Shown here: positions 12,765-24,576 of the stretch, in pieces
Numbering within the stretch: the first letter of the stretch is position 1
How the letters are laid out: each line of letters begins with the position of its first letter
Assembly: GCF_024055665.1 (NCBI RefSeq)
Contig: NZ_JAMXMC010000002.1
Span: 310,001 to 374,000, forward strand
Source: Ideonella oryzae
GTDB lineage: Bacteria; Pseudomonadota; Gammaproteobacteria; Burkholderiales; Burkholderiaceae_C
Direction: 5' to 3'
Length of the DNA stretch: 64,000 bases
The notes under the pieces: model-generated
What the model was told of the DNA's origin: nothing
Database searches by the model: none
What the model saw: the letters and a program-made list of their open reading frames with translations, nothing else
Position numbers and translations under genes: made by a program

Positions 12765-14792
12765 TCAGTCGCTCGTGTTTCGCAGTGCGCGATAAACCGT
12801 GTTGCGGCTCACGCCCAGCCGGCGGGCCGCCAGGCTGATGTTGCCATCGCACTGCGCCACCGCCTGCCGGATCGTCTGGTGGGCCAGGGCATGCAGCGGC
12901 ACAGAGGGTGGCGTGATGCCGGACGAGGCGATCTGAGGTTCTTCCGCAGCAATCAGCCGCTGACCGGCCGCCTGCATCGCCTGCCGTGCCTCTTCCACGA
13001 AGTCATCGGGCAGGTGCTCGGGCAGCACCTCCTGCCCGGGCCCGGCCATGACACAGGCGGTGCGCAGCACGTTGTGCAGCTGGCGAACATTGCCCGGCCA
13101 GCTGCAGTGCTGGAACAGCCGGCGCACCGGGCCGGACAGGCGGGGGGTGTTTTCGGGGGCAAGCTGACCCAGCAGGCGCTCCACCAGGGTGGGCAGGTCT
13201 GAGCGTTCGCGCAGCGGCGGCAGCTTCAGGGCCAAACCGTTGAGCCGGTAGTAAAGGTCTTCCCGAAAGGTCTGGGCCTGGATCATCTCGCGCAGGTTGC
13301 GGTGGGTGGCGCAGACCACGCTCACATCCACCGGGATGGACCGGCTGCCGCCCAGCGGCATGACCTGACGCTCCTGCAGCACCCGCAGCAGGTGGGCCTG
13401 CAGCGACAGGGGCATGTCGCCAATCTCGTCCAGGAACAGGGTGCCGCCATGGGCCTGCACGATCTTGCCGACCGCGCCGCGGCGGCGGGCCCCGGTGAAG
13501 GCGCCTTCCTCGTAGCCGAACAGTTCTGCTTCGATCAGTGTTTCCGGGATCGAGGCGCAGTTCACGGCAACGAAGGGCTGCCGGGCGCGGCGCGAATCCT
13601 GGTGAATGGCGCGGGCGAAGACCTCCTTGCCGGTCCCGGTCTCGCCCAGCAGCAGGATCGGGATGTCCCGGTCCATTACCCGGCGGATCTTGTCCACCAC
13701 GGTGGCGATCTGCGGGTCGCCGCTGTGCAGTGCCTGCAGGCCGGGCGCCTGGGAGGGTGCGGTCCGTGGTGCCGGGCGCGATGGCAGATCGGCGACAGGG
13801 CTGTCCAGATCGGCCCGGTCCAGGGGAGTGGGCAAGGCAGAGGACGTCGCATCAGCGCTGCGTTCCGTGGCGGCACTCGCCAGGGAACTGGCGGTCCACA
13901 CCGGCCAGTTGAAGCGGGGCTGCAGGTGAAAGCGCCGCCCGTCGGGCAAGGTCACGGCCAGTGGCTGCCCCAGCGGATGACGGAAGCGGTCGACCAGGGC
14001 GCCGATCTCCACCCCCATCAGCGTGGACAGCGTGTGGGCCCGCAGGGCGGCACCCGACAGGCCCGTCAATTCCAAGGCCCCCCGGTTGGCACCAAGGATG
14101 CGCCCGTCAGGGCTCACCGCGACGATGCCTTCCACCAGTGTCCCGATGAATTCGGGCCGGGGGTGGAAATGCAGGCGCAGGGCCTGCCGGTGATCGTCGG
14201 CCAGCCAGTGGTTTTCGATCATCCGGGCGGACATCTTGACCAGGGCCATGGTGTGTTGGTGGTAACCCCGCTGGTCGCCTGACACGTCCAGCACGCCCAG
14301 GATGTTGCCGCGCGGGTCCAGGATGGGGGCGGCCGAGCAGGTCAGGAAGCGGTTGGAGCGGACATAGTGCTCGTCCGCATGGATCAAGGTGGGGACCTCC
14401 TCGATCAGCGCCGTGCCGATCGCATTGGTGCCCTGGGCGGCTTCGGACCAGTTCGCGCCGGGTTGCAGCGTGACGCGGGCCGCGCGGCTCAGGAAGGCGC
14501 TGTCGCCGATGGCATGCAGCACGGTGCCTGCCGCGTCGGTCAGCAGCACCATGCTCTGGCTGTCGACGATCTGTTCGAACAGCATCTCCATGACCGGTGC
14601 GGCGTGGCTGCACAGCCGCTCGTTGCGCTGCAGGGCCAGGGCCAGTTCGGGGCGGCCGGCCAGGGCCTCGTCGGCACCCCGCACGGGGTCGATCCCCAGC
14701 GCCTCGCAACGCAGGTGCGAATTGGCGATCAGGCTGGCGCGCGCGGGCGAGGCGGCGACGGACAGAGGGGTCAAGGGGGGCTGGCCTGGCAT
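12765..14792 (-). CDS. AcoR-like sigma-54-dependent activator (GAF-PAS-AAA-Fis)
   Basis: A 675-residue enhancer-binding protein. A GAF domain spans about residues 65-195 (QGTNAIGTALIEEVPTLIHA is characteristic of AcoR), and a PAS-like segment spans about 211-290. The AAA+ domain has Walker A GETGTGKE (383-390), the sigma-54 contact loop GAFTGA (430-435) and GGTLFLDE (449-456). A Fis-type helix-turn-helix ends the protein (NISLAARRLGVSRNTVYRAL). The ATG at 14792 is chosen because GGAGGA lies seven bases upstream; an ATG at 14855 would add 21 weak residues. AcoR-type proteins sense acetoin, alcohols or related small molecules. No matching catabolic operon is in the window, so the target is unknown. 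Confidence 0.9.
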   Translation of the reverse strand: MPGQPPLTPLSVAASPARASLIANSHLRCEALGIDPVRGADEALAGRPELALALQRNERLCSHAAPVMEMLFEQIVDSQSMVLLTDAAGTVLHAIGDSAFLSRAARVTLQPGANWSEAAQGTNAIGTALIEEVPTLIHADEHYVRSNRFLTCSAAPILDPRGNILGVLDVSGDQRGYHQHTMALVKMSARMIENHWLADDHRQALRLHFHPRPEFIGTLVEGIVAVSPDGRILGANRGALELTGLSGAALRAHTLSTLMGVEIGALVDRFRHPLGQPLAVTLPDGRRFHLQPRFNWPVWTASSLASAATERSADATSSALPTPLDRADLDSPVADLPSRPAPRTAPSQAPGLQALHSGDPQIATVVDKIRRVMDRDIPILLLGETGTGKEVFARAIHQDSRRARQPFVAVNCASIPETLIEAELFGYEEGAFTGARRRGAVGKIVQAHGGTLFLDEIGDMPLSLQAHLLRVLQERQVMPLGGSRSIPVDVSVVCATHRNLREMIQAQTFREDLYYRLNGLALKLPPLRERSDLPTLVERLLGQLAPENTPRLSGPVRRLFQHCSWPGNVRQLHNVLRTACVMAGPGQEVLPEHLPDDFVEEARQAMQAAGQRLIAAEEPQIASSGITPPSVPLHALAHQTIRQAVAQCDGNISLAARRLGVSRNTVYRALRNTSD

Positions 14793-14883
14793 GGCGGGTT
14801 CCTCCGCGGGCCGTCCATGGGCGGCCCCGAAGGCGCCAGTGTGCCTCAGCGACAACTCAGCCGTGCTGCGCAGCGCGCATTGC

Positions 14884-17421
14884 TCAGCGCGTGTTGCTGG
14901 TGGCGCGCACCTCTTCCATGCTGGTGATGCCGGCCAGCACCTTCTCGATGCCGTCCTGGCGCAGCGTGCGCATGCCCTCGCTGAGGGCCTGCTGTTCGAT
15001 GTCTTCGGCGTGGCCCTTGCCGTGGATCAGCTGCCGCATGGCCCGGGAGGAGGTCATCAGCTCATGGATCCCGGCCCGGCCATGCAGGCCCGTGTTGTTG
15101 CACTTCTCGCAGCCCGGGCTGTGGTACCGACGGAGCACGCCTGCGTTGCCATGGCGCTGCATCCATTCCTGCCGCAGGGCGGCCCGGTCGGGCCCGCCGG
15201 TACGGCCTTTCCAGGCACTCAGGTAGTCGTCCAGGAGCTCGTTGATCCATTCTTCCGGCGCTGGCTCGGCGCGGCGGCAGTCGGGGCACAGGCGGCGCAC
15301 CAGACGCTGGGCCAGCACGGCCAGCAGGGCGTCCGCAAAGTTGAACGGGTCCAGGCCCATGTCCAGCAAGCGGGTGACTGTCTCGGCCGCGCTGTTGGTG
15401 TGCAGCGTGGACATCACCAGGTGACCGGTCAGCGAGGATTCGATTGCGATGCTGGCGGTTTCCTCGTCCCGGATCTCGCCGACCATGATCACGTCCGGAT
15501 CAGCCCGCAGAAAGGCGCGCAGCGCCTTGGCGAAGGTCCAGTCGATCTTGGGGTTGACCTGCACCTGGCGCAGGCCGATCTGGGTGATTTCCACCGGGTC
15601 CTCGGCCGTCCAGATCTTGCGCTCGGGGGTGTTGATGCAGCTGAGCGCCGAATGCAGCGTGGTGGTCTTGCCAGAGCCGGTCGGGCCGACGCACAGCACC
15701 AGGCCGTAGGGGCGGTTGATCGCTTCCTTCAGGGCCAGCAGGTTGCGCGGCGACAGCCCCAGCTTCTCGATGGGGGGCAGGGCCTTGTTGGACGCCAGCA
15801 GCCGCAGCACCACATCCTCCAGCCCGTTGTTGGTCGGGATGGTGGCCACGCGCAGTTCGATGGGGCAGGACGGGACGAAGCGGGCAAAGTTGATCTTGCC
15901 GTCCTGGGGTCGGCGACGCTCGGAGATGTCCAGGTCGCACATGATCTTGATGCGGGCGACCAGGGCGCTGCGGTAGGTGTGTGGCAGCTCCAGATAGGGC
16001 TTGAGCACGCCATCGAGGCGGAAGCGCACGCGCAGCTTGCCGCGGCCCGGCTGGGGCTCGATGTGGATGTCGGAGGCGCCCTGCGCATTGGCTTCCACGA
16101 TCATCGTGTTGATCAGCCGCACCAGGGTGTTGTCGGACTGCTCGATCGGCGGATCTTCGAGGGCATCCGTTTCGCTCACCCGGACCTGCTCCAGGTCCGC
16201 CAGCAGGTGCTCGGTGCCCTTCTCGTCGAAGCTCAGCCGCGTGGGTTCGCTGAGGTTGACCTGGGCCTGCTCGATCAGGCCATGGCGCTGATAGGCCGAG
16301 ATGATGGGCTGCGCCAGGTCCTCGGTGGCGGCCAGCACGGGAATGACCTTGCTGCGCGAGGCGAAGCTCAGCTCGTCGATCAGGCTCTTGCGCGAGGGGT
16401 CGTCCATCGCGACGACCAGCCGTCCCGGCAGGGTCTGCAGGGGCAGCACGTTCAAGCGTTGGGCCAATCCGAAGGGCACCAGTCGCAGCGCTGCGGGATC
16501 CACTGGGTAGGTCTCGATCTGCACCACCGGATAGCCCATCTTGCGGGCCAGCGCCGAGCGCAGGGCATCCCGCTTGATGTAGCCGGCACGCACCAGCAAT
16601 TCACCCAGCGGCACGGTGCGGTTGCTGCGCTGCTCGATGAGTGCGGCGTCCAGCTGGTTCTGGCTGATGTGGCCCATGGCCAGCAGGGCCTCGCCGATGC
16701 GTACCATCGGCATGCTGGCCTGGGTCTCCAGGGCCGCTTCCAGCTGCTCGCGGGTGACCACGTCCTGGCCCAGCAGCACGTCACCCAGGCGGCGTTCGCG
16801 CAGCTGGCTCTGCATGGCCAGCACCTCGGCAATCTGGGCCGGGCTGGCGGTGTCTTCGGCCACCAGCATGCTGCCCAGGCTTTCGCCCAGCTGGAAGCGG
16901 GCATAGACGTCGCGCGGGCAGAACAGGCGCTGCACCGTGCCCTGGTCGTCCATGGGCGGGAAGAGGAAAAGCCCCTCGGGCTGCTCGACATGGCCCACGG
17001 TGCGGCCGGTCAGCACGCTGCCGTCCATCATGTCCACCCGGTAATCGATCGAGGGGTGGAAGTCGGTCAACTCAGGCGGGACGGCGCCACGGTCCATGAA
17101 GGAGGGCCGCAGAGGCGTGAGCAGGGTGATGCGCCGAAAGCGGTTCGGTCGCAGGGCCATGGCCTTGCGCGCGGGTGGCACCACCAGCTGAATCACATTC
17201 TGAGCCGGCAGATAGGCCAGCAGGCTGGCCTGCATCACCTTGCCGTTCAGACCTTCGATCTCGCAGGGCTCAGGTTCCTGCTGGGGCAGGCTGGTCGGGT
17301 AGATGGCGTAGGGCGGTGTGGGCCAGGCGAAGGCCCCCGAGATCGGTTCGGCCACGGGAACAGCAAGATCGTCGTGGGGATCTGTCGTGAGAAAGGACGG
17401 CAGCTGCGACATGTTGCTCAT
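14884..17421 (-). CDS. GspE/PilB-type secretion ATPase with three MshEN-like motifs
   Basis: An ~845-residue hexameric-ATPase-like protein of the GspE/PulE/PilB family. The C-terminal half has Walker A GPTGSGKTT (579-587), the Asp box around TAEDPVE, Walker B DPDVIMVGEIRD (641-652) and a zinc site CPDC...CEKC (712-774). The N-terminal ~170 residues (LNGKVMQASLLAYLPAQN, IDYRVDMMDGS) are an unrecognised domain. Three copies of an RLGxxLxxxGxIxxxxLxxAL-like motif follow at 30-residue spacing (about 210, 240, 270), as in MshEN c-di-GMP-binding domains. No pilC or gsp genes adjoin. ATG 17421 is used; GTG 17445 and ATG 17412 are alternatives, none with a clear ribosome site. Confidence 0.88.
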   Translation of the reverse strand: MSNMSQLPSFLTTDPHDDLAVPVAEPISGAFAWPTPPYAIYPTSLPQQEPEPCEIEGLNGKVMQASLLAYLPAQNVIQLVVPPARKAMALRPNRFRRITLLTPLRPSFMDRGAVPPELTDFHPSIDYRVDMMDGSVLTGRTVGHVEQPEGLFLFPPMDDQGTVQRLFCPRDVYARFQLGESLGSMLVAEDTASPAQIAEVLAMQSQLRERRLGDVLLGQDVVTREQLEAALETQASMPMVRIGEALLAMGHISQNQLDAALIEQRSNRTVPLGELLVRAGYIKRDALRSALARKMGYPVVQIETYPVDPAALRLVPFGLAQRLNVLPLQTLPGRLVVAMDDPSRKSLIDELSFASRSKVIPVLAATEDLAQPIISAYQRHGLIEQAQVNLSEPTRLSFDEKGTEHLLADLEQVRVSETDALEDPPIEQSDNTLVRLINTMIVEANAQGASDIHIEPQPGRGKLRVRFRLDGVLKPYLELPHTYRSALVARIKIMCDLDISERRRPQDGKINFARFVPSCPIELRVATIPTNNGLEDVVLRLLASNKALPPIEKLGLSPRNLLALKEAINRPYGLVLCVGPTGSGKTTTLHSALSCINTPERKIWTAEDPVEITQIGLRQVQVNPKIDWTFAKALRAFLRADPDVIMVGEIRDEETASIAIESSLTGHLVMSTLHTNSAAETVTRLLDMGLDPFNFADALLAVLAQRLVRRLCPDCRRAEPAPEEWINELLDDYLSAWKGRTGGPDRAALRQEWMQRHGNAGVLRRYHSPGCEKCNNTGLHGRAGIHELMTSSRAMRQLIHGKGHAEDIEQQALSEGMRTLRQDGIEKVLAGITSMEEVRATSNTR

Positions 17422-17560
17422 GGCCAGAGGGGGTGCACCCGACACGGAAGGTCGGCGATGGTGGTGATCCTAGGCGCGCGGCCCATCGGGCCATGCCGAG
17501 ATAAGCCCAGGGATTCCCGTCCTGCTCGAGGTCATGAACCTCCGCGCGGACTCACCCTGT

Positions 17561-17776
17561 TCACCGAGGCGGCTCCTCGGTATCGGTGTCGTCCCGGTAG
17601 TGCTTCCAGCGGTCCACCGCCTGATGCATCACGCGGACTTGTCGCAGAAAGCGCGGGCAGGGGTCACAGATGGTGAGGTGCAGGCGCAGCTTCACGCGCT
17701 CGGCCAGGGTCAGGGGCCGGTCTTCGGCCTGGAGGATGAGTGCGGTGGCCTGTCGGCAGGAGATCTGGAAGAGCAT
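17561..17776 (-). CDS. Small zinc-finger anti-sigma factor
   Basis: A 71-residue protein with the zf-HC2 anti-sigma signature HLTICDPC (His-x3-Cys-x2-Cys) near residues 33-40 and an upstream Cys in QISCRQAT. It has no membrane span, so it is a soluble, possibly redox- or metal-responsive anti-sigma factor. It follows the sigma-factor gene by 19 bp on the same strand. Sigma plus zinc-finger anti-sigma pairs of this size are frequent next to bufferin (DUF2282/DUF692) operons, which start on the opposite strand here. Confidence 0.82.
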   Translation of the reverse strand: MLFQISCRQATALILQAEDRPLTLAERVKLRLHLTICDPCPRFLRQVRVMHQAVDRWKHYRDDTDTEEPPR

Positions 17777-17795
17777 GGCGGACGGGTCTCAGGGA

Positions 17796-18368
17796 TCAGG
17801 CCACTGCCGCAGAGGCACTGCCGAACCAGTTGGCCTGCAGGCAGTCGCGCAGGCGCAGGCGGGCGCGGTGCAGCAGCACCCAGAGATTGGCACTGGTGAT
17901 GGCCAGTTCCTGGCAGATCTCGTCGGTCTCCAGTTCCAGCCAGATGCGCATCATGAACACCCGCCCCTGCACCGGTGGCAGGTGGTCCATGCACGCGTCG
18001 AGCACCTGCAGAAACTGCTGCTGGCCCAGCAGGGCCTCGGGATGGGCCTGCCATTCCACCGGGGTGTCGCGCCAGTGGCCCGTCTCGTCGAACAGCAGTG
18101 GGTCCAGGTCTTCGGCGTCGTCGGTCTGCAGCACCGTGGCTTCGCGCGAATGGCGTCGGAGCTGGTCCACCAGCTTGTGCTTGAGGATGCCCACCAGCCA
18201 GGTCTTGAGCTGGGATTGGCCCGCAAAGGCCTGGGGGCGCTCCAGCGCCGCCAGCAGTGTGTCCGACACGGCGTCTTCGGCCCAGGCCTCGTTGCGCAGC
18301 TGGGTGCGGGCATAGCGCATCAATTGCGGGCGCAGCGCCTCGACGGCGCGCTGGAAATCGTCGGCCAT
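17796..18368 (-). CDS. ECF-type RNA polymerase sigma factor
   Basis: A 190-residue sigma-70 family member with only regions 2 and 4. Region 2 includes RNEAWAEDAVSDTLLAALE and KTWLVGILKHKLVDQLRRH. Region 4 includes LPPVQGRVFMMRIWLELETDEICQ interrupted only by the usual turn, then SANLWVLLHRARLRLRDCL. It resembles the TIGR02943-type sigma factors. The ATG at 18368 gives the ordinary MADDFQRAVEALRPQL start; an earlier in-frame codon at 18446 would extend into the bufA promoter region. It is divergent from bufABCD and cotranscribed with the anti-sigma gene, so it probably drives bufABCD and perhaps itself. Confidence 0.92.
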   Translation of the reverse strand: MADDFQRAVEALRPQLMRYARTQLRNEAWAEDAVSDTLLAALERPQAFAGQSQLKTWLVGILKHKLVDQLRRHSREATVLQTDDAEDLDPLLFDETGHWRDTPVEWQAHPEALLGQQQFLQVLDACMDHLPPVQGRVFMMRIWLELETDEICQELAITSANLWVLLHRARLRLRDCLQANWFGSASAAVA

Positions 18369-18398
18369 GCGCGAAACAGGAGTGACAACCACCCGAGT

Positions 18399-18424
18399 GT
18401 AAGGAATGCAGGGCCTGCCGCGAC
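18399..18424 (+). promoter_or_regulatory. Candidate ECF promoter of the bufferin operon
   Basis: In the 120-bp divergent gap, the plus strand has GTAAGG (18399-18404), a 16-bp spacer, then CGAC (18421-18424). This resembles the GTAACC-N16-CGAA type reported for Caulobacter SigF, which controls a related DUF2282/DUF692 operon. It differs at two positions in the -35 and one in the -10. Transcription from here would give a ~55-nt leader before bufA, whose ATG has AGGAG (18478-18482) in front. Confidence 0.4.
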
Positions 18425-18488
18425 CACCGAATGAAGGGCAGCGCAAGGGGCGCGGCCTTCACCACCATCCTCACACCAGGAGCTTTCC

Positions 18489-18776
18489 ATGCATTCGAAC
18501 CATCTGCTCGTGACCTCTGCCTTGTCTGCCGTGCTGGCCATGGGGCTGGGCGCTTCCGCGCACGCCGAAACCGGGGCCAAGGAGAAGTGCTTCGGCATGG
18601 CCAAGGCGGGTGCCAATGACTGCGCCAATCTCTCGGGCACGCATTCCTGTGCCGGGCTGGCCAAGGTGGACCATGGCGCCGACGAGTGGAACTACGTGGC
18701 CAAGGGCAGCTGCCACGCCCTGGGCGGGCGCACGCTGGACGAAGTCAAGGCCGGTGCCAAGGGCGGCGGCAAGTGA
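18489..18776 (+). CDS. bufA: Bufferin precursor (DUF2282, BufA1-like), copper-binding RiPP
   Basis: A 95-residue exported peptide of the DUF2282 family. The first 26 residues are a signal peptide ending AHA before ETG. The mature part has four cysteines (34, 45, 54, 75) in the bufferin arrangement KCFGMAKAGANDC, HSC and KGSC. In characterised bufferins, cysteines are converted to thiooxazole-type groups by the DUF692 enzyme before export, and the product sequesters copper in the periplasm. The ATG has AGGAG seven bases upstream. The stop overlaps the bufB start (GTGA), as expected for a coupled precursor-enzyme pair. Confidence 0.93.
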   Translation: MHSNHLLVTSALSAVLAMGLGASAHAETGAKEKCFGMAKAGANDCANLSGTHSCAGLAKVDHGADEWNYVAKGSCHALGGRTLDEVKAGAKGGGK

Positions 18777-19660
18777 ACCCGGGCTCTGCCACCCCCGGCG
18801 TGGGCATTGGCTGGCGGGCTCCCCACGCGAAGGACCTGTTCCAGCGCCGGCCCGCCCTGGGGTTCATCGAAGTCCACAGCGAGAACTTCTTTCCCCAGGG
18901 CGGGGAGGCCCGCGCCGCCCTGCGTGCGGCAGCCGAGCTGTATCCGCTGAGCTTGCACGGGGTGGGGCTTGGCCTGGGCTCGGCCGGTGGGCTGGATCCC
19001 TGGCACCTGGACCACCTGGCGGAGCTGGTTGCCGAGTTGCAGCCTCGGCATGTGTCTGATCACGCTGCCTTCACCCATGGGCCGGGCCCCGATGGCAGCT
19101 GGGCACATGCGGGCGACCTGCTGCCGATTGGCTTCAATCCGACGTCCCTGGCCTTGATGGCCCGGCATGTGGACCAGGTCCAGCAGCGGCTGGGGCGGGT
19201 GCTGGCGGTGGAGAACATCAGCGCCTGCCTCTGGCGGGATGACGACGAGATGGATGAGCCGGCCTTCTTCAACGCACTCACCCGTGCGACGGGCTGCCGA
19301 CTGCTGCTGGACCTCAACAACCTGGTGGTCAATGCGCTGAACCGGGAGGCCGGCGATCCAGTGACCGCTGCCTGCGCCTGGGTGGATGCGATCGATGCGA
19401 ACAGCGTCGACGAGATCCACCTGGCCGGCCACGATGCCAGCGGCCCCCTGGTCGTCGATGACCACGGCAGTGCGGTGAGCGAGGCGGTCTGGGCCGTCTA
19501 CCGCCACACCCTGGGCCGGCTGGGGCCGGTGCCCACCCTGATCGAGTGGGACACCGCCCTGCCGGAATTCGACACGCTGCTGCAGGAGGCCAGGCGTGCG
19601 GCGGCCTGCCTGCAGCAGCCCTGGAGCACGCCATGGACGCCCTTGCCACAGGCCGCCTGA
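18773..19660 (+). CDS. bufB: DUF692 multinuclear non-heme iron oxidase (BufB)
   Basis: A 295-residue TIM-barrel enzyme of the DUF692/MNIO family, which modifies cysteines of the bufferin precursor. Metal-ligand blocks are present in order: FIEVHSENFF (about 31-40), LHGVGLGLG, PRHVSDHAAF, VENISACLW, LLLDLNNLVVNA and EIHLAGHD. The true start is taken as the GTG at 18773, overlapping the bufA stop by four bases; upstream residues in the same frame are just bufA read out of frame. The ATG of bufC lies inside its last 28 bp, so bufA-B-C-D are all overlapped and surely one transcript. Confidence 0.95.
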   Translation: MNPGSATPGVGIGWRAPHAKDLFQRRPALGFIEVHSENFFPQGGEARAALRAAAELYPLSLHGVGLGLGSAGGLDPWHLDHLAELVAELQPRHVSDHAAFTHGPGPDGSWAHAGDLLPIGFNPTSLALMARHVDQVQQRLGRVLAVENISACLWRDDDEMDEPAFFNALTRATGCRLLLDLNNLVVNALNREAGDPVTAACAWVDAIDANSVDEIHLAGHDASGPLVVDDHGSAVSEAVWAVYRHTLGRLGPVPTLIEWDTALPEFDTLLQEARRAAACLQQPWSTPWTPLPQAA

Positions 19661-20454
19661 GCCCGGTGCTGACGCCGGAGGCACTGCGCCTTGAGCAGGA
19701 ACGGCAGGCCCGGCTATTGGCGGCCATCCGGGCCGGGCAGGGCCCGCTGCCGGCCGGCTGGGCAGGGCACCGGGTCGGGCTGCGGGCCCACCAGCGCCAT
19801 GCCCGCGCCACTGCACGCCGGGCCCTGGCCGGTGCTTACCCCGTCCTGGCCAGCTGGCTGGGAGACCCGGGATTCGACGATCTGGCGTGGTGGCTCTGGC
19901 GGCGGTCACCTCCTGCGAATGGAGACCTCGGGACCTGGGGGGGCGAATTGCCTCGGGCCCTGGCCGGCCCAGCCGCTTCGGTGTCTGCCGACCAGGCGTC
20001 GCTGGCGCGCCTTGAATGGGCGGTGCATCGGGCTGCACGGGCGGCCGACCCGGTGCCGGGCTGGCCGACGGGCTTGGCGGCCTTGCACGCCACCCCGCCC
20101 GATGCCTTGTGGCTGTGGCCGCAGGCCGGCCTGTCGGTCGTGCCGTGTCGCCCGCAGGCGCTGGCGCGGTGGCAGGCCGCCCAGTCCCCGTCACCTGAAG
20201 GCGCCAGCCCGTTGGGGGCGGTCGACTGGGTTCTGGTGCGACGCGTGGGTTGGCAGGTGGCGGTGCGGGGCCTGTCGGCCGATCAGGCCCGCTTCACACG
20301 GCGTCTCCTGGCGGGAGACAGCCTGGGTCAGGCCCTGACGGCTGCTGCCCCTGCGGATTTTCAGGACTGGCTGCGCGACGCGCTGGCCGAAGGCTGGTGG
20401 AGGGCGGTGAGTCACACCGCGCACCGCCGCTTCCACGATGAGGACGAACCATGA
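19633..20454 (+). CDS. bufC: DUF2063 partner protein of the DUF692 oxidase (BufC)
   Basis: A 273-residue protein of the DUF2063 family. It begins with the helical domain seen in BufC proteins (HRVGLRAHQRHARATARRAL, then YPVLASWLG). BufC is thought to bind the precursor and present it to BufB. The C-terminal half is rich in Trp and Leu (GWWRAV near the end) and poorly conserved. The ATG at 19633 has GGAG (19623-19626) six bases upstream and overlaps bufB by 28 bp. Its stop overlaps the start of bufD as ATGA. Confidence 0.9.
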   Translation: MDALATGRLSPVLTPEALRLEQERQARLLAAIRAGQGPLPAGWAGHRVGLRAHQRHARATARRALAGAYPVLASWLGDPGFDDLAWWLWRRSPPANGDLGTWGGELPRALAGPAASVSADQASLARLEWAVHRAARAADPVPGWPTGLAALHATPPDALWLWPQAGLSVVPCRPQALARWQAAQSPSPEGASPLGAVDWVLVRRVGWQVAVRGLSADQARFTRRLLAGDSLGQALTAAAPADFQDWLRDALAEGWWRAVSHTAHRRFHDEDEP

Positions 20455-20912
20455 AGATATCGATGATCGAACGCGGCCAGGCCGTGTGGCACCCACTGGA
20501 GGCCGTGTTGAATGCGCTGCAGGCGCCAGCCCAGCTGGCGGCACGCTGCTACGTGGGCTCGGTGTTTTTCCGCTCCGGGCTGACCAAGCTGCGCGACTGG
20601 GACACCACGCTGGCACTGTTCCAGGACGAGTACCACGTGCCCTTGCTGCCGCCTGAGGTGGCCGCAGTGGCTGGCACCACCGGGGAACTGGCACTGCCGG
20701 TGCTGCTGGTGCTGGGCCTGGCCGGGCGTTTCGCGGCGGCCGGGCTGAGCGTGGTGAACGTGGTGGCGGCCATCAGCCTGGTGGACATTGCCGAGGCGGC
20801 CCTGACCCAGCACCAGTTCTGGGGCAGCCTGCTGCTGGCGCTGCTGCTGTGGGGGCCGGGCGGCTGGTCGGTAGACGCCTGGCTGCGCCGCCGCCTCAGT
20901 CCTTCGGTGTGA
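20451..20912 (+). CDS. bufD: DoxX-family membrane protein (BufD-like)
   Basis: A 153-residue inner-membrane protein with about four hydrophobic helices and the DoxX signature ARCYVGSVFFRSGLTKLRDW at its first helix. DoxX proteins are the usual fourth member of bufferin operons, where an oxidoreductase or quinone-linked role has been suggested but not shown. The start overlaps bufC by four bases. The 3' end overlaps the convergent tolA gene by 17 bp. Confidence 0.88.
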   Translation: MKISMIERGQAVWHPLEAVLNALQAPAQLAARCYVGSVFFRSGLTKLRDWDTTLALFQDEYHVPLLPPEVAAVAGTTGELALPVLLVLGLAGRFAAAGLSVVNVVAAISLVDIAEAALTQHQFWGSLLLALLLWGPGGWSVDAWLRRRLSPSV

Positions 20913-21918
20913 AGCCGATTTCCATTGTCGGCGGGATGGTGCCGTCCACGTCGCGCGGCAGCTTGCCGGTGCGGTCGATGGCGCGCAGCACCGTCTCATC
21001 CCAGTCATGGTTGCCGCTGGAGTGGGTCAGGCGCCGGCCAATGATGCTGCCGTCCGGCGCGCAACGCACCTCCACCACCGCCCGCGGGTTGCCGTCGATG
21101 CTGTCGAGCTGGACGATGTTGGGCTTGATGTAGGCCTTGAGGCGGCCTGCATAGTTGGCCGAGGGGCCGGAGGTGCGCTGGGCCGTGCCGGTGCTGCCTT
21201 GAGCACCATTCGCGCCGGCCACGCCATTGGGGCTGCCCAGCTGGGCGGCCATGCGTCGCAGCTGATCCTGGCGAGCAGCCTCGGCCGCCTTGGCCTGGCG
21301 CTGCTGGTCCTGCTTGGCCTGACGGTCCTTGTCGGCCTGTTCCTTCGCCGCCTGCTCCTTGGCGGCCTTGTCCTTGGCGGCTTTCTCCTCGGCCGCCTTG
21401 GCCTGCGCGGCTTTTTCCTTCTCGCGGGCGTCGCGCTCGGCCTGCTGGCGCTTCTCGCGGGCACGCTGGTCGCGCTCGCGCGCCAACTCGGCTTCGCGTT
21501 CTTCCTGGGCCTTTTCGGCAGCCGCCTGCGCGGCCTTGGCTGCCTTTTGTTCGGCCGCCTTCTGCGCCGTGGCCCGCTCGGCAGCGGCCTCGGCCTGCTG
21601 TTGACGGGCCTCCTGCCGGGCCTCTTCCTGCGCCTGGCGGGCCTGCTCGGCCTGGGCGGCCGTGTCCTGCGGCGGCGTGGGGGTCGGCTGGCCGTCGGTC
21701 TGGCCCTGGGGGGCTGCGGCGATCTGCGGCACGGCGGACCACAGCTCAGCGGTCACCCCTTCGGGATCGGCGGTGTGCCACTGCACGCCCAGCGTCAGCC
21801 CCAGCACCAGCAGCAGGTGGGCCAGCAGGGACATGATCCAGCCCGTGCGCGGGCTGTCCGCGGTGGGCGGGTGCAGGGCCTCGCGCGGCGTGGCCAGGGT
21901 CTGCAGCGGGCTGCTCAC
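20896..21918 (-). CDS. tolA: Cell-envelope integrity protein TolA
   Basis: A 340-residue inner-membrane-anchored protein. It has a single span near residues 28-45 (SLLAHLLLVLGLTLGV) and a long Ala/Lys/Glu/Gln-rich coiled coil (about 80-230). The C-terminal globular domain includes YAGRLKAYIKPNIV, VEVRCAPDGSI and the terminal MEIGFTPKD. TolA spans the periplasm and couples TolQR to Pal and TolB in outer-membrane constriction. The GTG at 21918 is chosen because AGGGAGG lies about eight bases upstream, straddling the tolR stop. A longer in-frame reading into tolR is not conserved. tolB and pal do not follow: convergent bufD does. Confidence 0.93.
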   Translation of the reverse strand: MSSPLQTLATPREALHPPTADSPRTGWIMSLLAHLLLVLGLTLGVQWHTADPEGVTAELWSAVPQIAAAPQGQTDGQPTPTPPQDTAAQAEQARQAQEEARQEARQQQAEAAAERATAQKAAEQKAAKAAQAAAEKAQEEREAELARERDQRAREKRQQAERDAREKEKAAQAKAAEEKAAKDKAAKEQAAKEQADKDRQAKQDQQRQAKAAEAARQDQLRRMAAQLGSPNGVAGANGAQGSTGTAQRTSGPSANYAGRLKAYIKPNIVQLDSIDGNPRAVVEVRCAPDGSIIGRRLTHSSGNHDWDETVLRAIDRTGKLPRDVDGTIPPTMEIGFTPKD

Positions 21919-21922
21919 GGCA

Positions 21923-22351
21923 TCAGCCTCCCTGGCGGACGGACAGCCCCACATGTTGCACACCGCGCCGCTGCAAGGTGTCCATCACCTTCACCACGCT
22001 CTCGTAGCGCACCTGCTTGTCGGCCGAGATGATGACCGGCACGTTGTCGCTGCCCGCCTGGGCGCCCAGCACCTGATCGGCCAGTGCGTTCAGCGTCGTG
22101 GTCTGGGCCTCGCCCTTGTCGAGCTTCAGCTGCAGCTTGTCGTCGCTCTTCACGATGATCTCGACCACGCTTTGCGGGCGGGTCTTGGCCTTGCCCACAC
22201 TGGGCAGGTCCACCACGCCGGTGGTGATCATCGGCGCGCTGACCATGAAGATGATGAGCAGCACCAGCATCACGTCGATGAAGGGGACCATGTTGATCTC
22301 GTTCATCGAGCGGCGCCGGCGGCCACCGCCGCGGGGAGCAACTCCTGGCAT
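21923..22351 (-). CDS. tolR: TolR, ExbD-type stator subunit
   Basis: A 142-residue single-pass protein of the Tol proton channel. The membrane helix follows the motif MNEINMVPFIDVMLVLLI; Asp26 is the essential proton-carrying residue. The periplasmic domain (LPSVGKAK, VIISADKQVRYESVVKVMD) is typical of ExbD/TolR. It lies between tolQ (15-bp gap) and tolA (4-bp gap). Together with TolQ it uses the proton gradient to energise TolA. Confidence 0.96.
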   Translation of the reverse strand: MPGVAPRGGGRRRRSMNEINMVPFIDVMLVLLIIFMVSAPMITTGVVDLPSVGKAKTRPQSVVEIIVKSDDKLQLKLDKGEAQTTTLNALADQVLGAQAGSDNVPVIISADKQVRYESVVKVMDTLQRRGVQHVGLSVRQGG

Positions 22352-22366
22352 CTAGGACGTCCTCGC

Positions 22367-23056
22367 TCAGTGGGTCGTCGCCCCGCCAGGGGTGCCGACG
22401 TTGCGCTGCAGGATGTTGGAGAACTCCTCGACGAAGCTCTCGAGCTGGATGGCGATGCGGTCGATGGTGCGGGCGAAGTGGTTGTAGGCCAGCACCGCGG
22501 GAATGGCCGCGAACAGGCCGATGGCCGTGGCCACCAGTGCTTCGGCAATGCCCGGGGCCACGGTGGACAGCGTGACCTGCTGCAGATTGGACAGGCCGAC
22601 GAAGGCGTGCATGATCCCCCACACCGTGCCGAACAGGCCCACATACGGGCTGATCGAGCCCACCGAAGCCAGGAAACCGATGCTGCCTTCCAGCGCGTCC
22701 AGCTCGCGCTGCAGGGTGGCCTTCATGGCGCGGCGGGCGCCATCGAGCTGGCTGCCGGCGTCGAGCTGGCGCTCGCGCAGCTTCATGAACTCGCGCATGC
22801 CACTGGCGAACAGGCGCTCCATCGGCCCGGTGTCCGGCTTGTTGCTGGCGCTGCGGTAGAGATCGTTCAGGTTGCGGCCGGACCAGAACTCCTGCTCGAA
22901 GTTGCCGTCGCGCTCGCGGGTGCGGGACAGGCCCACCACCTTGGAGAAGATCACGCTCCAGCTGGCCAGCGAGATGAGCAGCAGCGCGGTGACCACCAGC
23001 TGCACGATCAGGCTGGCGTGCATCAGCAGGGAGACGATGGAGAGGTCCTGGTTCAT
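22367..23056 (-). CDS. tolQ: TolQ, proton-channel subunit
   Basis: A 229-residue three-span inner-membrane protein of the MotA/TolQ/ExbB family. The signature is GSISPYVGLFGTVWGIMHAF, followed by the conserved last helices (PGIAEALVATAIGLFAAIPAVLAYN). The ATG at 23056 gives the normal MNQDLSIVSLL start and overlaps the ybgC stop by four bases. It forms the pentameric proton channel with TolR. Confidence 0.97.
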   Translation of the reverse strand: MNQDLSIVSLLMHASLIVQLVVTALLLISLASWSVIFSKVVGLSRTRERDGNFEQEFWSGRNLNDLYRSASNKPDTGPMERLFASGMREFMKLRERQLDAGSQLDGARRAMKATLQRELDALEGSIGFLASVGSISPYVGLFGTVWGIMHAFVGLSNLQQVTLSTVAPGIAEALVATAIGLFAAIPAVLAYNHFARTIDRIAIQLESFVEEFSNILQRNVGTPGGATTH

Positions 23057-23469
23057 GGGAAAAGGCGGGAGAGGACGTCGGAAGGGATGCGGCGGGGGCG
23101 AAAGTCGGCCTGGTCCACGCAGGCGATCTCGATCTCGCCTTCGCACAACAGGGTGTCGCCTCGCCAGGCTTGCTGGAACACGGTCATGCGGGCCCGGCCG
23201 GGCTCGGCACGGTCCACACTGACCATCAATGCATCATCGAGCCGTGCGGGGGACAGGTAGCGCAGCCGGGTCGATGCGACGACGAACAGGGCGCCGCTGC
23301 GTTCACGCAAGTCCTGCTGGCCGATGCCGGCCGCGCGCAGCCACTCGGTGCGCGCGCGCTCGAAGAACTTGAGGTAATTGGCGTAGAACACCACCCCGCC
23401 AGCGTCGGTGTCCTCCCAGTAGACGCGCACTGGGAAGCGGAAAAGCGGGGCTGTCGTGGGCTCGGACAT
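23053..23469 (-). CDS. ybgC: Tol-Pal-associated acyl-CoA thioesterase
   Basis: A 138-residue hot-dog-fold thioesterase. The catalytic signature is YWEDTDAGGVVFYANYLKFF, with the Asp used for hydrolysis. YbgC is the first gene of tol operons in many Proteobacteria and acts on short-chain or phospholipid-related acyl-CoAs at the inner membrane. The ATG at 23469 (SEPTTAPLFRFPVRV) is preferred to an in-frame GTG at 23493. It overlaps tolQ by four bases. Confidence 0.95.
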   Translation of the reverse strand: MSEPTTAPLFRFPVRVYWEDTDAGGVVFYANYLKFFERARTEWLRAAGIGQQDLRERSGALFVVASTRLRYLSPARLDDALMVSVDRAEPGRARMTVFQQAWRGDTLLCEGEIEIACVDQADFRPRRIPSDVLSRLFP

Positions 23470-23529
23470 GCGAAGCCGCGATGATACGCCCACTGCTGCG
23501 ATGCAGCAGCAGAGCCCCTGGGCGCGCCG

Positions 23530-24576
23530 TCAGCCGCGAGGTCCCCGCAGCCAGGCAAACAGGCTGCGGCGGATGGGCAGGGTGGCTTCCAGATCCGGCT
23601 CCTGACCGTGCTTCCAGTCCCGCAGGGCGTTGGCCATGTGGCGCGCCGACGGGAAGCGCGCGGCCGGGTTGCGCGCCATGGCCTGCGCGGCGATGGCCGA
23701 GAGGCCGTCCGGTGCCTGGGGGTTCCATTGGCAGGCCACCGGTTGCGGTGCAGTGAGCACGGCTTCGGTGATTTCTTCCATGGATTTGCCGGTGTAGGGC
23801 GGACGGCCCGTGAGCAGCTCGAACAGCACGATGCCCAGGGAATAGACATCGCAGCGCCGATCGATCGGCTGCTGGCGCAGTTGCTCCGGCGAGAGGTAAT
23901 GCGGGGAGCCGATCGAGGCCGCCTGCACGGTGCTGCCATCGCCGCGTGCCAGCCGGGCGATGCCGAAATCCAGCACCTTGGGCATGCGCCGGTCCACCAT
24001 GAAGATGTTGGCTGGCTTGACGTCGCAGTGGATCACGCCCTTGCCGTGGGCATAGGCCAGCGCCTCGGCCACCCGGCGCACCAGGCTGGCGGCCTCTTGC
24101 GGGTTGGGGCGCCAGCCCTGACGCAGCAGCTGCCGCAAGTCCATGCCCTGCAGCGTCTCCATGGCGATGTAGATGCCCTGGGGCGAGGCCCCGGCATCGA
24201 AGACCGTCACGATGTGCGGGTGGGACAGGCGGGCAGCCGCACGGGCTTCGTTGAGCGTGAGTTCGGCGGCTGAAGGCATTCCGGCGGAGGCCGGCACGTC
24301 GTCCACCACCTGCCGCTTGAGCATCTTGACCGCCACGCGGCGAGAGAGCAGGGGATCCCAGGCGCCGTAAACGGTGCCCAGTCCACCCTCACCCAGGATG
24401 GTGCGCAGCTCGTAGCGCCCCACGGTGCCCAGTTCCCCTGGGGCCTCCTCCTGCTGGAGCAAGGCATGCAGGGCATCGAACTGGCTGCGGCCACGGTCTT
24501 CGATGACCGTGTGCTGAAAGACCGGCGAGGCGCTATCGGTACTGCTTTGACGCGTCTTGAACGGATTCCACGACAT
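23530..24576 (-). CDS. Serine/threonine protein kinase (Hanks type), cytoplasmic
   Basis: A 348-residue eukaryotic-like kinase. The glycine loop is LGEGGLGTVY (61-70), with Lys84 in VAVKMLK, Glu110 in the C-helix, catalytic Asp185 in HCDVKPANIF (a Cys replaces the common Arg) and DFG at 203-205. SPE (229-231) takes the place of APE. No transmembrane span and no sensor domain follow the kinase; the C-terminus is a short tail. A ~50-residue N-terminal extension precedes the kinase core. The ATG at 24576 starts this extension. It lies upstream of ybgC on the same strand with a 60-bp gap. A partner phosphatase is not visible here. Confidence 0.9.
   Translation of the reverse strand: MSWNPFKTRQSSTDSASPVFQHTVIEDRGRSQFDALHALLQQEEAPGELGTVGRYELRTILGEGGLGTVYGAWDPLLSRRVAVKMLKRQVVDDVPASAGMPSAAELTLNEARAAARLSHPHIVTVFDAGASPQGIYIAMETLQGMDLRQLLRQGWRPNPQEAASLVRRVAEALAYAHGKGVIHCDVKPANIFMVDRRMPKVLDFGIARLARGDGSTVQAASIGSPHYLSPEQLRQQPIDRRCDVYSLGIVLFELLTGRPPYTGKSMEEITEAVLTAPQPVACQWNPQAPDGLSAIAAQAMARNPAARFPSARHMANALRDWKHGQEPDLEATLPIRRSLFAWLRGPRG

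Follow-up and report, generated by a model that had tools for sequence, protein, structure and literature searches.

Sigma factor, anti-sigma factor and bufferin operon

The stretch of DNA analysed here (the window) comprises 64,000 nucleotides of Ideonella oryzae contig NZ_JAMXMC010000002.1 (G000:C12:310001-374000), part of a 4.7 Mb genome assembled in 31 contigs. It contains a complete Buf1 bufferin operon (18489-20912), encoding DUF2282, MNIO, DUF2063 and DoxX proteins, which diverges from the genes for an extracytoplasmic function (ECF) sigma factor and a small anti-sigma factor (Table 1). An earlier note on this DNA had described these overlapping genes and their divergence from a sigma factor and a 71-residue anti-sigma factor; the open reading frames (ORFs) and their Pfam and NCBIfam matches agree. 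We consider it likely that the pair is a stress switch controlling the adjacent bufferin operon and at least two further targets elsewhere in the genome. This wider regulon, consisting of an unlinked Buf2 operon and msrPQ, is the part that the earlier note missed.

The sigma factor scored 228.1 bits against TIGR02943 (cut-off 162.2) and its gene was the only copy detected in its own genome at E <= 0.001. By sigma identity, the closest named genomes were Ideonella sp. B508-1 (94%) and I. benzenivorans (88%). The anti-sigma factor matched zf-HC2 at 25.6 bits (cut-off 22.2) and the anti-sigma model NF052368 at 69 bits (cut-off 50). The sigma factor was present in 95 genomes of a 200-genome family sample at E <= 1e-30; 100 sigma places were retrieved, of which 94 had the anti-sigma gene downstream of the sigma gene. 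All 94 relatives with an anti-sigma gene had HxxxCxxC, 93 of them with the exact spacing C-x25-H-x3-C-x2-C, and C7, H33, C37 and C40 were invariant in 21 aligned sequences. Hydropathy gave no membrane helix for the anti-sigma factor, with a 19-residue maximum of 0.5 for the window protein and 1.44 for all relatives, as compared to 2.07 for the DoxX protein. The predicted model had three helices (pLDDT 72), and PDB sequence searches with the single sequence and with a profile returned nothing useful. In an alignment to the family profile, MseR of Neisseria gonorrhoeae reached a probability of 96.9%, and the ligands lined up. We infer that the anti-sigma factor binds both the sigma factor and zinc.

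A related pair was seen on Burkholderia glumae plasmid bglu_2p (L340), where sigma and zf-HC2 genes follow thioredoxin and CcdA genes and the stretch has no annotated bufferin gene; sigma/zf-HC2 pairs therefore serve other redox operons too.

Within the operon, the bufA product scored 73.5 bits against PF10048 (DUF2282; cut-off 22.4); its signal peptide was judged by eye. The four cysteines previously noted in the precursor are present in mature BufA and are kept in 58 of 59 relatives. bufB overlaps bufA by 4 bases, and its product scored 289.8 bits against MbnB_TglH_ChrH (cut-off 25); the NCBIfam BufB equivalog was the best of six models matching bufB, at 283 bits under a cut-off of 310. The longest frame of bufC opens at GTG 19546, and BufC scored 42.3 bits against DUF2063 (cut-off 27.2). 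BufD scored 66.1 bits against DoxX (cut-off 23.6) and 55.9 bits against the HvfX model, under the cut-off of 80 for the latter. Thiooxazole formation is reported to cost 4 Da per cysteine (PMC12668002), and Buf1 peptides are described as modified at the central cysteines, with the outer two joined by a disulphide (PMC12452194). For BufA we would expect a mass change of -4 Da per thiooxazole cysteine plus, presumably, -2 Da for a disulphide, and not only the shifts of -2 or -4 Da suggested earlier.

Table 1. Features of the sigma factor and bufferin locus, in window coordinates
Feature	Position	Strand	Basis
ZAS (zf-HC2) anti-sigma factor, soluble, 71 residues; putative ligands C7, H33, C37, C40	17561..17776	-	Pfam, NCBIfam
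ECF sigma factor, TIGR02943 family, 190 residues	17796..18368	-	ORF, NCBIfam
TACACT (AGTGTA on +), possible housekeeping -10 of sigma gene, inferred; overlaps bufA -35	18396..18401	-	Conservation
-35 element TGTAAGGA of bufA promoter	18398..18405	+	Footprinting across relatives
-10 element CGAC of bufA promoter, 64 nt before bufA start codon	18421..18424	+	Footprinting across relatives
AGGAG, ribosome binding site of bufA	18478..18482	+	Sequence
bufA, Buf1 bufferin precursor (DUF2282), signal peptide, four Cys	18489..18776	+	ORF, Pfam
bufB, MNIO maturase, GTG start	18773..19660	+	Pfam; below NCBIfam BufB equivalog cut-off
bufC, DUF2063 partner protein	about 19633..20454	+	ORF, Pfam; start codon uncertain
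bufD, DoxX-type membrane protein; ATGA overlap with bufC	20451..20912	+	ORF, Pfam

The neighbouring genes, a T2SSE ATPase with an MshEN domain (14884-17445, minus strand) and a TolA-, TolR- and TolQ-like cluster (20896-23146, minus strand), are ordinary and apparently unrelated. An Rfam search of 14000-24000 gave no match.

A conserved promoter upstream of bufA

The earlier note had proposed GTAAGG-N16-CGAC at 18399-18424 as a candidate promoter and suggested a search for the pattern upstream of DUF2282 genes in other genomes. By footprinting, the candidate bufA promoter is real, the decisive evidence being its conservation before bufA in relatives. bufA was divergent from the sigma gene in 59 of the 100 family places, 47 of them within 320 bp and 12 at 680-800 bp. 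Of the 47 close loci, 36 had the strict motif GTAAG-N16/17-CGAC oriented toward bufA and none had it on the opposite strand; it was found 0 times in 200 shuffles. It was present in 22 of 23 loci used for discovery and in 14 of 24 loci that were not; among the 12 loci with a distant bufA it was found in 6. The alignment of named loci covered 46 of 50, the four most distant (L179-L182) being left out. A comparison of the window with two Ideonella genomes showed AGTGTAAGGAATG and GCGACCAC to be identical and the bases between them to have changed. The site is the sole exact match to GTAAGG-N16-CGAC in the window (0.02 expected in shuffles, though the pattern was derived from this same site) and, at N16 spacing, the sole exact match in the 4.7 Mb genome.

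Six of the 12 loci with a distant bufA were inspected (L041, L044, L045, L062, L063, L078), and in all six a periplasmic thioredoxin-like gene (CAVCRDKM) lies between the sigma promoter and bufA; the one that was checked against Pfam matched AhpC-TSA/Redoxin. Two loci that have no bufA (L010, L159) carry the motif upstream of the sigma gene, where it precedes a small gene that in L010 is cupin-like by eye.

The earlier note had also pointed to the closeness of this site to the Caulobacter SigF pattern GTAACC-N16-CGAA. That likeness was rejected: 3 of 10 positions differ, and the pattern with three mismatches matches 284 times in the window as compared to 250 in shuffles, 2 of 100 shuffles reaching 284, about the chance level. 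The Neisseria sigmaE promoter is reported as GTMAGBWTT, 12-13 nt and CGTCTAAH (PMC2893595). Against its -35 consensus, GTAAGGAAT agrees at 8 of 9 positions, followed by a spacer of 13 nt; against its -10 consensus, CGACCACC agrees at 5 of 8. As judged from these alignments, the bufA motif fits the Neisseria sigmaE -35 consensus better than the SigF pattern. Because the anti-sigma factor is ZAS and not NrsF, and because the motif is nearer to the Neisseria sigmaE -35, kinship with SigF is unsupported.

Further sites before a Buf2 operon and msrPQ

The genome was searched for exact matches to GTAAGG-N15/16-CGAC, with the reversed pattern as a control; exact matches were adopted because a scan allowing one mismatch was uninformative (149 matches versus 388 for the reversed pattern). 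Four exact sites were found, as compared to 35 for the reversed pattern, and three of the four precede the Buf1 operon, an unlinked Buf2 operon and msrPQ. The Buf2 site ends 97 nt before the start of a gene for a BufA2 precursor (NF050166, 99 bits, cut-off 60); behind this gene lies a single ORF with both MNIO and DUF2063 domains. The msrP site ends 52 nt before msrP (NF003767, 474 bits, cut-off 207), and the ferric-reductase-type gene that follows the 3' end of msrP is MsrQ by position. The fourth site (G000:C13:30888-30912, minus strand; L183) lies antisense within an ORF, HipA-like by eye, and is probably due to chance. As an observation in its own right, the fusion of the Buf2 maturase and its partner in this genome joins MNIO and DUF2063 in one frame of at least 574 residues (L131:616-2340, minus strand; G000:C23 near 127815-128597).

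The strict motif recurs at both further targets in relatives. Among the best 30 of 40 BufA2 places in the family, it stood upstream of BufA2 in 24, and on the other strand in none of the 30. Among the best 30 order-wide BufA2 loci, drawn from 65 genomes with a match, it was found in 14 of 24 sigma-carrying genomes (I. oryzae included) versus 1 of 6 sigma-lacking ones; the three additional near-matches all came from sigma-carrying genomes. The msrP gene was found in 178 of the 200 family genomes, and the 90 best-scoring places were compared according to the presence of the sigma factor at E <= 1e-30. The motif preceded msrP in 38 of 45 sigma-carrying versus 11 of 45 sigma-lacking genomes (Fisher 1.3e-8, a statistic that ignores kinship among genomes). 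The difference was seen in both batches: 15/15 versus 3/15 with 160 bp of upstream sequence (15 + 15 genomes), and 23/30 versus 8/30 with 220 bp (30 + 30 genomes). Where the sigma factor was at least 60% identical, the motif was found before msrP in 30 of 30 genomes; on the opposite strand it was found in none of 60 tested. The three kinds of site also agree outside the search pattern: the base three positions after CGAC was A in 29 of 36 Buf1, 21 of 24 BufA2 and 44 of 49 msrP sites.

In two loci from other families (L386, L387), genes for the sigma factor, anti-sigma factor, BufA2 and MNIO follow one another on the same strand; sigma genes therefore do occur beside Buf2. In the available text of a survey, sigma and NrsF genes are reported in Buf1 clusters and not in Buf2 clusters (PMC12452194), which left the control of Buf2 open; the proposed three-target regulon bears on that question.

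A possible promoter of the sigma gene

The sequence AGTGTA on the plus strand abuts the bufA -35 element and reads TACACT toward the sigma gene. The reading that we favour, with something approaching an even chance, is that TACACT would serve as a housekeeping -10 of the sigma gene that overlaps the bufA -35. AG preceded TGTAAG (or NGTAAG) at 33 of 36 Buf1 sites versus 5 of 73 BufA2 and msrP sites (Fisher 3e-19), a difference that argues against AGTGTA being merely an extended -35 of the ECF promoter, with no overlapping sigma-gene promoter. Where the sigma factor was at least 60% identical, AGTGTA was found no more than 100 nt from the start of the sigma gene in 48 of the 50 loci that have a close bufA, and where no bufA was close it survived in 8 of 17 loci (0.17 expected by shuffling) as compared to 1 of 17 for the ECF motif. 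These survival counts take each sequence once and, among loci lacking bufA, cover those with at least 900 nt upstream. An extended -35 nonetheless remains a serious contender, with somewhat less than an even chance of being correct. It would account for the adjacency of AGTGTA to the bufA -35, and several results speak for it and against overlapping promoters: the sigma strand offers only a weak partner -35 (TTGACA is matched at no more than 3 of 6 positions in 38 of 53 loci); a sigma-70 consensus scan of 17400-21100 found no promoter; and with sigma factors of 50-60% identity in loci without a close bufA, AGTGTA (8/37) was no commoner than the ECF motif (9/37).

If the favoured overlap holds, active sigma factor at bufA would shut off its own gene, because the sigma-gene promoter shares DNA with the bufA -35. 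The full proposal, that a cytoplasmic zinc-thiol sigma switch co-ordinates the unlinked and chemically distinct Buf1 and Buf2 systems with MsrPQ in Burkholderiales and also limits itself through this shared DNA, is tentative and, taken as a whole, is held with less confidence than either reading of AGTGTA.

A probable stress switch for three operons

Because the same promoter signature precedes Buf1, Buf2 and msrPQ, one stress switch probably runs all three operons. In the unstressed cell, the small cytoplasmic zinc-type anti-sigma factor would hold the ECF sigma factor. Damage to the C7/H33/C37/C40 site, whether by thiol oxidation or by displacement of zinc (for example, by excess copper), would free the sigma factor, and RNA polymerase carrying it would start transcription at TGTAAGGA-N-CGACnnA promoters before the Buf1 operon, the unlinked Buf2 (BufA2) operon and msrPQ. 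The periplasm would gain peptides that bind copper and a means of repairing methionine sulfoxide. Copper, hypochlorite and thiol oxidation are all candidate signals; for any single one of them the case is possible at best.

A number of observations weigh against this switch. The strict motif was absent from 11 of the 47 close bufA loci and from 6 of the 30 BufA2 family loci, and 5 of the 41 loci that lack bufA had it. At the bufA site in the window itself, the base three positions after CGAC is C instead of A. Fold searches with the anti-sigma model gave no informative match and no anti-sigma structure, an absence that is itself uninformative. In meningococci, oxidative stimuli are reported to have left sigmaE expression unchanged, and MseR was unresponsive to the oxidants tried (PMC2893595). 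Before msrP, the motif was absent in 7 of 45 sigma-carrying genomes and present in 11 of 45 sigma-lacking ones; three of these 11 (G098, G166, G197) share a genus label with a sigma-carrying genome.

Those 11 exceptions, along with the one sigma-lacking genome that has the motif at BufA2, are what would be expected if the pair controlled the adjacent bufferin operon only and the BufA2 and msrP sites were read by another ECF sigma factor of similar specificity; one of the exceptions, G103, has a more distant sigma factor (38% identity). We consider this unlikely, given how closely sigma presence tracks the msrP motif, without exception where the sigma factor is close, the identity of the element at all three targets down to the unsearched base, and the adjacency of sigma genes to BufA2 in L386 and L387. 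A metal-stress system of the SigF/NrsF type (ECF16) is more improbable by far. Caulobacter SigF is reported to have targets of the same kinds, namely two Buf1 operons and a YedY (MsrP-like) gene (PMC3511200). Its anti-sigma factor, however, is a six-helix membrane protein and its promoter motif, GTAACC-N16-CGAA, is different (PMC3511200), whereas the window encodes a 71-residue zf-HC2/ZAS protein that lacks a membrane helix and is not NrsF, beside a site that matches the SigF motif at about chance level. The sigma factor of the window is, in our view, the probable reader of the shared element.

A shared promoter would bring Buf1, Buf2 and MsrPQ into a single regulon and points to a combined stress of copper and periplasmic methionine oxidation; MsrPQ of Escherichia coli has been tied to copper via CusSR (PMC9302797). 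Our literature search, which covered few subscription papers, found no paper joining Buf1, Buf2 and MsrPQ under one sigma factor. What this analysis adds, in a form open to testing, is the regulon of three targets, which takes in Buf2 in trans as well as msrPQ; the overlapping promoter is the boldest reading put forward here. The promoter signature can be used to find bufferin regulons in other genomes.

Comparison with known systems

The BcrS/AbcS system of Brucella (ECF16) is similar in that an ECF sigma factor drives an MsrQP-like operon induced by hypochlorous acid (HOCl); it differs in its NrsF-type anti-sigma factor, and the available text mentions no bufferin genes (PMC8315932). In Cupriavidus metallidurans, compared here by description only, the gigPABT operon resembles that of the window in having four genes, a four-Cys precursor and a divergent ECF sigma gene, rpoQ (PMC10304878). 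Its anti-sigma factor, RsqA, is unlike ours in being predicted to be membrane-bound; in the text available, no gig promoter is mapped and rpoQ is described as dependent on the housekeeping sigma factor (PMC10304878). A zf-HC2 anti-sigma factor is also combined with Buf1 genes outside the family of the window: a Pantoea soli plasmid has sigma, zf-HC2, DoxX, DUF2063, DUF692 and DUF2282 genes side by side.

The earlier note had regarded a soluble anti-sigma factor as a distinct regulatory arrangement. It is not new, because soluble ZAS anti-sigma factors whose sigma factors drive an MNIO-peptide/DoxX operon and a methionine sulfoxide reductase are in print for Neisseria (MseR; PMC2893595, PMC3240639) and Haemophilus (HrsE; PMC7907618). 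The RpoE2/HrsE system of H. influenzae, also compared by description only, has a 67-residue cytoplasmic ZAS anti-sigma factor, a regulon with MsrAB and a DoxX/DUF2063 operon, and a link to HOCl (PMC7907618); its targets are unlinked to the sigma gene or differently arranged around it.

The sigmaE/MseR system of Neisseria (NMB2140-NMB2145) has a sigma factor of the same TIGR02943 model at 37% identity (that of N. gonorrhoeae scores 284), an anti-sigma factor of the same NCBIfam model in which the C-x25-H-x3-C-x2-C spacing corresponds to Cys4, His30, Cys34 and Cys37 (PMC2893595), linked DoxX, MNIO and DUF2063 genes, a methionine sulfoxide reductase in the regulon, and a similar -35 with a 12-13 nt spacer. 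It differs in that the N. gonorrhoeae precursor is of the EGKCG/HvfA kind and not DUF2282, and in that the target is MsrAB and not MsrPQ, with no Buf2 target reported in the available text (PMC2893595). Finally, the Neisseria genes form one operon with positive feedback, whereas those of the window are a divergent pair; the self-limiting loop proposed here would be of opposite sign.

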